From NCBI GenBank assembly GCA_017524615.1, contig JAFXVJ010000010.1, forward strand, positions 1 to 64,000: DNA of 64,000 nt, written 5' to 3'. The position numbers and the translations under genes were made by a program. The DNA comes from Clostridia bacterium (GTDB lineage: Bacteria > Bacillota > Clostridia > Christensenellales > Aristaeellaceae). Each line of letters begins with the position of its first letter. Position 1 is the first letter of the stretch. The notes under the pieces are model-generated. The model searched no databases and was not told the origin of the DNA. It saw nothing but the letters and a program-made list of their open reading frames with translations. This document shows, one piece after another, positions 6,438 through 8,461 of the stretch.

Positions 6438-6476
6438 AGGAATGGACACGGCGGCGCGCCCGCTGTGTCCATTCCT
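6438..6476 (+). terminator. Hairpin after prfC
   Basis: 12-bp perfect arms (6438-6449 and 6465-6476) with a GC-rich interior that can pair further, 45 bases after the prfC stop. It lacks a T run, so it may be a 3-prime mRNA-protecting hairpin rather than a strict intrinsic terminator. Confidence 0.55.
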
Positions 6477-6601: not shown

Positions 6602-6632
6602 TTGCTTGTTACGCGGCGTCATGTTGTAAAAT
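6602..6632 (+). promoter_or_regulatory. MerR-type promoter with 19-bp spacer
   Basis: TTGCTT (6602-6607) and TAAAAT (6627-6632) are 19 bases apart. A 19-bp spacer is the hallmark of promoters untwisted by MerR-family activators, and the gene directly downstream is a MerR regulator, suggesting autoregulation. Confidence 0.65.
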
Positions 6633-6656
6633 CCATGGCGCAAGGAGGTGAAAGCT

Positions 6657-7382
6657 ATGTCAAAATACACGACGGGAGAGATCGCAAAGCTCTGCGGCGT
6701 CACTGTCCGAACGGTTCAGTATTATGATACCCGCGGCATCCTGATTCCCAGTGAGCTTTCCGAAGGCGGAAGGCGGCTCTATTCGGAAGACGATGTGAAG
6801 CGCATGAAGGTCATCTGCTTCCTGCGGGAGATGGATCTGCCGATCGACGCGATTGCCCAGATCCTGAAGGAAGAGCATCCCGAGAAGGTGATTTCTCTGC
6901 TGATTGAACAGCAGGAGGCCGTCCTTTCAGAGGACATCTCAGAGAAGCAGGAAAAACTGACAAAGCTTCGGGAGCTGAAAAACGGATTGAAAAGCCAGGC
7001 GGTATTCTCTCTCGAATCCATCGGTGACATAGCCGTATTTATGGAAGGCAAGAAAAATCTCAAAAAAATGCGCTGGATGATGCTCCTGTCCGGAATCCCG
7101 GTTACGGCGCTGCAATGGCTTGCCATCGTTGTCTGGATTGACAGAGGCATCTGGTGGCCGTTCATCGTCTGGGTGCTGGTGGCTGCTGTCTGGGGCACAG
7201 TGGTCAGCCGATACTACTTTCATCATGTAAAATACATCTGCCCCGAATGCCATGAGGTGTTCAAACCCGCACTGAAGGAAGCCTTATGGGCAAATCATAC
7301 GCCAACCGCCCGCAAGCTGACCTGCCTCGCGTGCGGCCACAAAGGCTATTGTGTGGAGATTTGGGGAGGGGACGGGAAATGA
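6657..7382 (+). CDS. Membrane-anchored MerR-family regulator with C-terminal zinc ribbon
   Basis: A 241-residue protein. Residues 3-72 are a MerR winged helix (YTTGEIAKLCGVTVRTVQYY), 75-112 a likely dimerisation coiled coil, then two membrane segments (about 141-161 and 165-187) joined by a very short outer loop. The cytoplasmic tail has two CxxC pairs (C195/C198 and C223/C226), a zinc-ribbon pattern. The start at 6657 has AAGGAGG eight bases upstream. The stop overlaps the start of the YhfC-like protease gene (ATGA), so the two are translationally coupled. A DNA-binding domain tethered to the membrane next to an intramembrane protease suggests release by proteolysis; this is inference. The signal sensed is unknown. 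Confidence 0.85.
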   Translation: MSKYTTGEIAKLCGVTVRTVQYYDTRGILIPSELSEGGRRLYSEDDVKRMKVICFLREMDLPIDAIAQILKEEHPEKVISLLIEQQEAVLSEDISEKQEKLTKLRELKNGLKSQAVFSLESIGDIAVFMEGKKNLKKMRWMMLLSGIPVTALQWLAIVVWIDRGIWWPFIVWVLVAAVWGTVVSRYYFHHVKYICPECHEVFKPALKEALWANHTPTARKLTCLACGHKGYCVEIWGGDGK

Positions 7383-8212
7383 CGGAATTTGAGAACATCG
7401 TCATCAGCAAAAGCAGCATTCCGTCCCTGATCATCACAGCTGTTCTGATGATCGCAATTCCCGTTGTTTTCTTCATTTATTGGCGCAGAAAGCATAAGGA
7501 GCAGACCAAGATCAGCTGGCTGATAGCCGGCGCCGTCGGATTCATCGCTTCAGCCCGGCTGCTGGAGCTGGGCGTGCATTATTTCTGCATCCTTGCGGAT
7601 AATCCCGTTTCCCGGTTCATGAACGGAAGCACGGTTGCCTATGTGCTTTACGGAGTCGTGACAGCAGGCGTTTTCGAGGAGTGCGGAAGGCATATCATTC
7701 TGAAATACATCATGAAAAAGGACCGCACCCGTGAAAATGCGGTTCTCTACGGTATCGGCCACGGCGGGATAGAGATATTGGCCGTTATACTGCCTGCAAT
7801 CATGACCTATCTGGTCATTGCCATCACGTTCTCCAAAGGAACTGTGGAAGAAGCATTGACCGCGCTGAAGATCACGGAGGATACCGCCGCCGCCGCGCTT
7901 CCGTCCGTCCGGGCGGCTGCCGCGTTCGATTATGCCATGATGGCGATGAACGTCATTGAGCGCCTGCCGGCGATGCTCCTGCATATCGGATGTACGGTGA
8001 TCGTGTATTACGGGGTCGTAAACGCCCAGAAAGCCTGCCTGCCGATGGCGATTGCCCTGCATATGCTGGCAGATACATTCCCCGCGCTGTACCAGAGAGA
8101 GGTCGTTCCCCTGTGGGCGGTTGAGGTATGGTGTGCTGTATGGGCCATCGTCACCGCAGGCATTGCCGTGAGGCTTTACAGAAAAATGAAGGGAACGGCT
8201 GACTGCGTTTGA
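7379..8212 (+). CDS. YhfC-family putative intramembrane glutamic protease
   Basis: A 277-residue polytopic membrane protein with about seven hydrophobic segments. It has the paired glutamates EECGR at residues 100-104 and HGGIE at 128-132, the motifs of the YhfC family, which belongs to the CPBP/PrsW group of putative intramembrane proteases. A further conserved-looking His is in IALHMLADTF. It overlaps the MerR gene by four bases and is the last gene before a bidirectional terminator. PrsW relatives cleave membrane-bound anti-sigma factors, so the membrane-anchored MerR protein is an attractive substrate. Proteolytic activity of YhfC proteins is largely predicted. Confidence 0.82.
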   Translation: MTEFENIVISKSSIPSLIITAVLMIAIPVVFFIYWRRKHKEQTKISWLIAGAVGFIASARLLELGVHYFCILADNPVSRFMNGSTVAYVLYGVVTAGVFEECGRHIILKYIMKKDRTRENAVLYGIGHGGIEILAVILPAIMTYLVIAITFSKGTVEEALTALKITEDTAAAALPSVRAAAAFDYAMMAMNVIERLPAMLLHIGCTVIVYYGVVNAQKACLPMAIALHMLADTFPALYQREVVPLWAVEVWCAVWAIVTAGIAVRLYRKMKGTADCV

Positions 8213-8354: not shown

Positions 8355-8461
8355 GTCATCCCGAGGGAAGCCCAGCCGAGGGATCTGTGCGCGCACCGTT
8401 CAACCGGCAAACAGGTCTTTTTACGCCGTTCCGCTTTTCGCTCCACGCCGCTCGGGATGAC
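8355..8461 (+). repeat. Dispersed palindromic intergenic repeat, copy A
   Basis: A 107-bp element beginning GTCATCCCGAG and ending in its exact reverse complement CTCGGGATGAC. The interior (GGGATCTGTGCGCG, CGGCAAACAGGTC, CCGTTCCGCTTTTCGCTCC) matches the reverse complement of copy C and the right half of copy B. It is noncoding and sits between the YhfC-like gene and the bidirectional terminator. Confidence 0.8.

Follow-up and report, generated by a model that had tools for sequence, protein, structure and literature searches.

We analysed the first 64,000 nucleotides of contig JAFXVJ010000010.1 from a Clostridia bacterium (hereafter the window) and focused on two overlapping genes: merR, encoding a MerR-family regulator with a predicted transmembrane (TM) hairpin and a zinc ribbon (MerR-ZnR), and yhfC, encoding a member of a glutamic-type intramembrane protease family. 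On balance we favour the reading that merR and yhfC form an autoregulated membrane-sensor operon in which YhfC is the regulated output, probably in envelope defence. MerR would be a one-component regulator anchored in the membrane by its hairpin, with its DNA-binding head and zinc ribbon in the cytoplasm, and would bind a dyad that lies in its own promoter, between -35 and -10 elements 19 bp apart. In response to a signal at the membrane or the ribbon, for which membrane-active antimicrobials, envelope damage and metal or thiol state are candidates, MerR would re-shape the promoter and switch the operon on, rather than plainly repress it, giving more MerR and more YhfC. YhfC would then protect or remodel the envelope as CAAX-type and SdpI-type immunity proteins do, and relatives of MerR would drive exporters or other membrane proteins instead. 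What chiefly suggests that YhfC is the output is that exporters and other proteins can take its place while regulator and operator stay the same.

Relatives were drawn from two sources. The ribbon-hairpin part of MerR was used to scan 84,980 species genomes, which yielded 480 confirmed relatives; we retained the best 80, and many titles among these 80 loci name ruminant gut samples or uncultured Clostridia. A survey of the order gave a match in 106/396 genomes, and its best 30 loci comprise the window and 29 others. The gene next after merR is yhfC in 67 of the 80 nearest loci (66 of 79 parsed by script, plus L088). An earlier note on this DNA had called for such a co-occurrence survey and had let its proposal stand or fall with a conserved neighbourhood; because the merR-yhfC layout is conserved across many genomes, the proposal survives on this point.

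The regulator, its operator and its operon

In the window merR and yhfC overlap by the ATGA at 7379-7382, as the earlier note had read (Table 1). The gap between the genes across the 66 parsed loci is -4 in 60, -22 in four, -34 once and -14 once; with four loci from the order survey added, a start codon lies at the 4-nt overlap in 68/70 YhfC loci. The sequence supports one co-translated operon with an autoregulatory layout that many genomes share.

Table 1. Features of the merR-yhfC locus, in window coordinates.
Feature	Position	Strand	Details
MerR-type promoter	6602-6632	+	-35 TTGCTT 6602-6607, 19-bp spacer, -10 TAAAAT 6627-6632
Operator dyad TTACGC-G-GCGTCA	6609-6621	.	Inside the spacer; presumed MerR binding site
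Ribosome-binding site AAGGAGG of merR	6642-6648	+	From sequence; AAGGAGG-type motif recurs in family upstream regions
merR-2TM-ZnR gene	6657-7382	+	241 aa; MerR helix-turn-helix (HTH), helical linker, TM hairpin, C-terminal zinc ribbon
TM hairpin coding	7077-7217	+	TM1 ~aa 141-161, loop ~162-166, TM2 ~167-187; from hydropathy and model
Zinc ribbon coding	7227-7361	+	aa 191-235, CPEC...CLAC; putative metal binding, from the motif
yhfC gene	7379-8212	+	277 aa; glutamic-type intramembrane protease family; PF10086 profile
YhfC motif 1, EECGR (aa 100-104)	7676-7690	+	E100, E101, R104 invariant in 58/58
YhfC motif 2, HGGIE (aa 128-132)	7760-7774	+	H128, G130, E132 invariant in 58/58
YhfC motif 3, HMLAD (aa 228-232)	8060-8074	+	H228, D232 invariant in 58/58

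The Pfam model MerR_1 matched MerR at residues 4-72 (E=1.3e-20; 73.7 bits against a cut-off of 21.6), giving the protein a winged HTH, and past residue 72 no Pfam model exceeded its cut-off. Hydropathy left about five residues between TM1 and TM2. An AlphaFold (AF2) model of modest confidence (mean predicted local distance difference test score, pLDDT, of 69.5; parts of the HTH below 50) placed helices at 119-163 and 167-190, followed by a beta ribbon at 191-236. Two hydrophobic 17-mers were found in 101 of 106 aligned full-length family rows (by our own hydropathy script, not TMHMM), and mean net charge over the 106 rows was +4.3 before TM1, +2.0 after TM2 and +0.9 in the loop. Since positive charge flanks the hairpin and little lies in the loop, both ends of MerR are most likely in the cytoplasm. 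Pfam, hydropathy, charge and alignments together bear out the domain plan first proposed for this protein (HTH, two membrane segments with a tiny loop, zinc ribbon).

The 106 rows had been picked by a motif that contains ribbon residues; ribbon invariance was therefore counted on a motif-free set of 112 loci found by tblastn to the window's MerR (the 80 nearest, 29 from the order survey and three relatives). Cys195, Cys198, Cys223, Cys226 and His214 are present in 112/112. The cysteines of zinc ribbons of this type are usually structural. An invariant Cys4 ribbon would also suit a metal or thiol sensor of the ZntR or CadR kind, with the operon serving metal stress and the hairpin a mere anchor; the best NCBIfam neighbours of the HTH are indeed ZntR and CadR, and YbjQ, which Pfam describes as putative heavy-metal-binding, is encoded beside the MerR-ZnR gene of L141 and, by resemblance, beside other YhfC genes. 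However, the curated ZntR, CadR, CueR, MerR and SoxR models all stayed below their cut-offs, those for metal sensors far below (best ZntR, 57.4 against 167.95 bits), and most classified partners are exporters or proteases of no known metal family. We consider a metal sensor of this kind very improbable.

The ribbon module is not tied to the MerR head. At L032 (2925-3632) and L033 (3040-3651) a two-helix and zinc-ribbon module is fused behind an XRE-type HTH_3 domain, and many weaker matches of the order survey may be fusions of this sort. A PADLOC anti-phage search returned a single match, to the short MerR-HTH part of mad1.

The promoter has a dyad in its 19-bp spacer, as in the MerR family, where such dyads lie in spacers of 19-20 bp. 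The upstream survey covered 105 loci, 102 of them distinct, for which 80 nt of preceding sequence were available, and used the promoter expression TTG[CT][AT][TC]-19-TANNNT. A promoter with exactly this spacer was present in 97/105 family upstream regions, against 0.2% of mononucleotide-shuffled 80-mers, confirming the 19-bp spacing that had been read from the window; spacers of 15-18, 20 or 22 bp occurred in none of the 105 loci and one of 21 bp in a single locus. A strict operator expression was matched at 62/65 YhfC loci, at 9/10 and 2/2 Rce1-like loci, at 7/9 ABC loci, at 3/3 loci with a secreted hydrolase and at 10/16 with other partners (shuffles, 0.13%), and the twelve misses are by eye near-variants, for example with GCGTTA instead of GCGTCA. 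Promoter and operator are thus conserved upstream of merR whatever gene comes next. A generic sigma-70 scan did not list the promoter at 6602 because it allows only spacers of 16-18 bp.

The window's own genome (81.6% complete) holds a single site within three mismatches of the 6602-6623 pattern. A two-mismatch search of 60 related genomes found 17 operator sites in 16 genomes, and the reversed-pattern control found 0. Each of the 17 is located directly before a merR gene, which in 16 cases belongs to this membrane family; fifteen were placed before MerR-ZnR genes by their coordinates, and the other two were assigned by reading the DNA. Because the operator is unique in its own genome and confined to merR genes in relatives, the predicted regulon of MerR seems to be its own operon and little else. 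Two sites had seemed to lack a MerR-ZnR gene: one precedes a family MerR truncated where its contig stops, and the other lies before a soluble paralogue (L283:1687-2545) that shares the operator of the membrane family. Since this soluble paralogue carries it too, the operator is linked to the DNA-binding head and not to the membrane module. The same search found no operator site in the two genomes with XRE-type fusions (G033, G057).

Conservation of the gene pair

YhfC exceeded its cut-off in 12 of the 60 related genomes, 8 of which encode the ribbon of this MerR some 70 bp ahead of the match; 7/29 genomes of the genus have the pair. The distances of the two proteins are correlated across 66 pairs (Spearman 0.57; no permutation exceeded 0.28). 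The pair itself aligned in 1891/1891 locus pairs, with flanks common to 7/1540 upstream and 6/1431 downstream. Gene order in the window's genus (G000-G028) is scrambled. The control gene prfC is present at 88% identity or more in 28/29 genus genomes (the 29th has a distant paralogue only), and its flanks are common to 23/190 pairs upstream (20 genomes) and 2/210 downstream (21 genomes); the flanks of merR-yhfC in seven congeners are common to 0/21 and 0/15 pairs. Because the genus is so scrambled, the conserved adjacency of merR and yhfC is meaningful and not due to chance. A mobile cassette wandering among varied flanks was considered and rejected: the flanks of prfC are scrambled too, so those of merR-yhfC are no sign of mobility.

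Two merR-yhfC pairs come from assemblies named as Spirochaetes (L086 and L104) and resemble the window about as much as many Clostridia pairs do; they may reflect horizontal transfer or mis-binned contigs.

Exchanged partners and the role of YhfC

YhfC matched PF10086 over residues 24-249 (E=2.8e-45; 155 bits, cut-off 24.2). Its sequence has the full pattern EExxR, HGGxE and HxxxD, whose residues we take to be catalytic. The EE and HGGIE motifs picked out in the earlier note, E100/E101 and H128 included, are present as described there, and E100, E101, R104, H128, E132, H228 and D232 proved invariant in all 58 aligned rows (the window and 57 of 66 relatives). Since every motif is invariant, catalysis by YhfC has probably been selected. 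The AF2 model of YhfC (mean pLDDT 93.9) has an APH-1-like fold, with APH-1 chains as its best matches. APH-1 is a non-catalytic scaffold.

The remaining 13 of the 80 nearest loci have a different gene, or none, behind merR. Seven have an Rce1-like gene next (L070, L073, L077, L090, L097, L103, L122; PF02517 confirmed for L073, the others assigned by resemblance), so that the commonest replacement of YhfC there is another glutamate-type intramembrane protease. PF02517 was found in one representative of each of two Rce1-like kinds, and in the shorter kind the start codon falls at the same 4-nt overlap in 9/10 loci. An AraC/GyrI-like protein comes next at L091 and L107 (Pfam scan on L107), a PBP-like membrane protein at L116, a short frame of no assigned family at L117 and an MFS gene, 229 nt beyond merR, at L060; L095 has no codirectional next gene. 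Among the 29 order-survey loci the next gene encodes YhfC in 4, an Rce1-like protein in 4, an ABC transporter in 8, a secreted alpha/beta hydrolase in 2, and another or no clear partner in 11. The ABC genes lie mostly behind a small PLDc_N-type protein, and with MFS they put exporters among the alternative next genes.

A quick tree built from 106 MerR rows implies 18 changes among the six partner classes. Many of its forks are weak; its strongly supported branches alone force at least 4 changes for YhfC. YhfC does not always accompany the regulator within a genome: of 13 whole genomes with a close MerR and a non-YhfC partner, 12 lack an above-cut-off YhfC, as far as incomplete assemblies allow (absences are soft). 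One of the 13 has an above-cut-off YhfC elsewhere (the genome of L095), one a sub-cut-off match and eleven none; seven have the Rce1-like partner instead, and six have no neighbouring protease (a search for Rce1-like genes elsewhere in these six was not made). MerR relatives without an adjacent protease keep hairpin, ribbon and operator.

Several points weigh against YhfC as the output of an envelope-defence operon. Partner classes rest on Pfam for representatives, the others being assigned by sequence resemblance, and several genes counted as partners, the one for MFS at L060 among them, may lie outside the operon. The partner belongs to the glutamate-protease clan in 74/80 nearest loci (67 YhfC, 7 Rce1-like), which would fit a specific interplay of regulator and protease equally well. 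In TM1, where Gly146 is present in 104/112 loci and the helix-breaking Pro148 in 97/112, Gly146 shows no clear difference between partner classes, and Pro148 is kept in 74/77 protease-paired rows against 17/28 with other partners, a skew that ancestry confounds. The envelope-defence role would follow from gene neighbours only, and the accessible parts of two papers (PMC3536700, PMC4525379) place yhfC of Bacillus subtilis in the lipid regulon of FapR, which would argue for a part in lipid homeostasis and not in immunity. Reports link CAAX-type proteases to bacteriocin immunity, but the protease studied in PMC9298176 (accessible part) conferred none and seemingly processes signal peptides.

Much of this evidence has to be weighed for regulated intramembrane proteolysis, in which YhfC would cut MerR at the hairpin and either free its DNA-binding half or destroy it as a feedback off-switch. 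The two genes are adjacent, co-translated and conserved together, the 4-nt overlap extends to the shorter Rce1-like kind, the catalytic motifs are all invariant and the commonest substitute for YhfC is again a glutamate-type protease. Conserved Gly146 and Pro148, the Pro148 skew and the correlated distances of MerR and YhfC lean the same way, but shared descent can explain the last two. Pro148 is also kept in 7/9 ABC-paired rows and in each of the six close relatives that lack a protease partner, and it is replaced in two YhfC-paired loci (L146 and L148); given these relatives and the confounding by ancestry, we do not count the skew as evidence of cleavage. The retention of hairpin, ribbon and operator without a neighbouring protease argues against cleavage, as do the genomes without above-cut-off YhfC and the pairing of YhfC elsewhere with soluble GntR or SdpR regulators, which have no membrane segment to cut. 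We therefore hold proteolysis of MerR by YhfC to be unlikely. The earlier note had proposed a one-operon signalling system in which the protease releases or inactivates MerR; the operon, with its conserved autoregulatory layout, stands, and the proposed action on MerR finds no support, given the exchange of partners behind the same MerR and operator, the regulator's presence in genomes without above-cut-off YhfC and the GntR and SdpR partners.

A related and likewise doubtful possibility is a modular switch, composed of MerR head, hairpin and ribbon with an invariant self-operator and exchangeable outputs, on whose hairpin the YhfC- and Rce1-type proteases would act back. If they do, this would assign a substrate to YhfC and be the first intramembrane proteolysis of a MerR protein.

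YhfC might instead be a co-sensor that controls MerR by binding and not by cutting. Co-translation of the two genes suits such a partnership, as does the resemblance of YhfC to the APH-1 scaffold. A precedent is SdpI of B. subtilis, an immunity protein and receptor that holds SdpR at the membrane (PMC1626106, accessible part), and a run of YhfC, SdpR and SdpI genes occurs in Ruminococcus albus. On the other side, invariant catalytic residues are unexpected in a pure binding partner and MerR occurs without YhfC, leaving the co-sensor quite improbable. A Pfam search of the window's MerR and YhfC gave no match at E <= 1 to SdpI or DUF1648, the membrane protein expected in an SdpR/SdpI-type immunity operon.

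The R. albus run lies on plasmid pRUMAL02 of strain 7 (L271:2983-4790, NC_014825.1), where YhfC, an SdpR autorepressor and a DUF1648/SdpI protein are encoded in one overlapping run; by its gene content this may link YhfC to SdpI-type immunity circuits. More widely, YhfC exceeded its cut-off in 22/396 genomes of the order sample, 5 of these 22 having MerR-ZnR adjacent, and in 46/398 genomes of a phylum sample, in which the full MerR-ZnR regulator was found in 3/398, the window's own genome included. Many YhfC genes have no close codirectional neighbour. YtrA-like GntR genes lie beside YhfC at seven loci and at L170, and YbjQ or DUF1648 genes lie beside some others (Pfam on L170, L141 and L240, the rest by resemblance), with YhfC overlapping the YbjQ gene in three genomes (L158, L161, L163). 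L161 (2187-3150) encodes a second kind of membrane MerR, with two helices, no ribbon and the C-terminus RIKEIKGGEEDEAAQY, followed by YbjQ and by YhfC at a 4-nt overlap. At L141, where YbjQ lies beside MerR-ZnR, a free-standing 2-TM protein is encoded between them, and its C-terminal motif is similar to the RIKEIKGGEEDEAAQY of L161.

Relation to known systems and minor observations

Transmembrane transcription regulators, MerR operons with 19-bp spacers and YhfC proteases are each already known. Like the transmembrane transcription regulators (TTRs) of the ToxR, CadC and TcpP type, the predicted MerR-ZnR protein combines a DNA-binding domain and a membrane segment in one polypeptide as a one-component system, and some TTRs likewise have co-encoded associated proteins (PMC10269533, accessible part); it differs in its MerR head, its two-helix hairpin with almost no outer domain and the cytoplasmic zinc ribbon at its C-terminus. 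In the main text of that paper the term MerR turns up only as an author name. Autoregulated MerR operons of the metal, drug and TipA type share the palindrome in a 19- or 20-bp spacer and the regulator adjoining its target (PMC1526738, accessible part), whereas here the effector module is a hairpin and ribbon in place of a soluble pocket and the next gene encodes an intramembrane protease. The small operon of SdpR and SdpI in B. subtilis is also autoregulated and also joins a regulator to a membrane protein (PMC1626106, accessible part); in the window a single protein combines regulator and membrane anchor, and neither of the two proteins matches an SdpI domain.

YhfC itself conforms to PF10086 in profile and catalytic motifs, yet most sampled YhfC genes have no adjacent MerR-ZnR. 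PrsW, which we assume to belong to the same broad superfamily as YhfC, acts with RsiW in a system of regulated intramembrane proteolysis that, like others of its kind, pairs an intramembrane protease with a membrane-tethered regulator; here, by contrast, the two are encoded together, and the regulator is also kept beside partners other than the protease. In the accessible part of the open-licence literature we found no link of YhfC to MerR, beyond Escherichia coli expression studies naming both, no description of a membrane MerR with an intramembrane protease, and no substrate or pathway of YhfC beyond FapR-controlled expression.

YhfC proteases are widespread in the phylum, as the 46/398 count indicates, and APH-1, which they resemble in fold, is a subunit of gamma-secretase. 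Because a regulator of its own and a conserved promoter accompany yhfC here, an ordinary reporter could reveal its inducer and role. The MerR-ZnR family further suggests a way to couple a MerR protein to the membrane and to put it to work with a range of outputs.

An unverified record labelled 'Staphylococcus phage' (L272:2992-3765, OR844999.1) contains a full-length protein related to the membrane MerR at 31% identity; the metabolic genes around it look bacterial, and the record is probably host DNA. In the flanks of the window's pair, a strong hairpin just after prfC (6438-6476; 17-nt arms, 94% complementary, 5 nt apart) is perhaps the prfC terminator. Close relatives of the polysaccharide deacetylase gene downstream occur in no more than six other congeners and lie on contigs other than those with prfC. 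The intergenic stretch downstream of yhfC holds, at 8355-8385, a single copy in the window of GTCATCCCGAGGGAAGCCCAGCCGAGGGATC, which presumably resembles a widespread kind of intergenic repeat.

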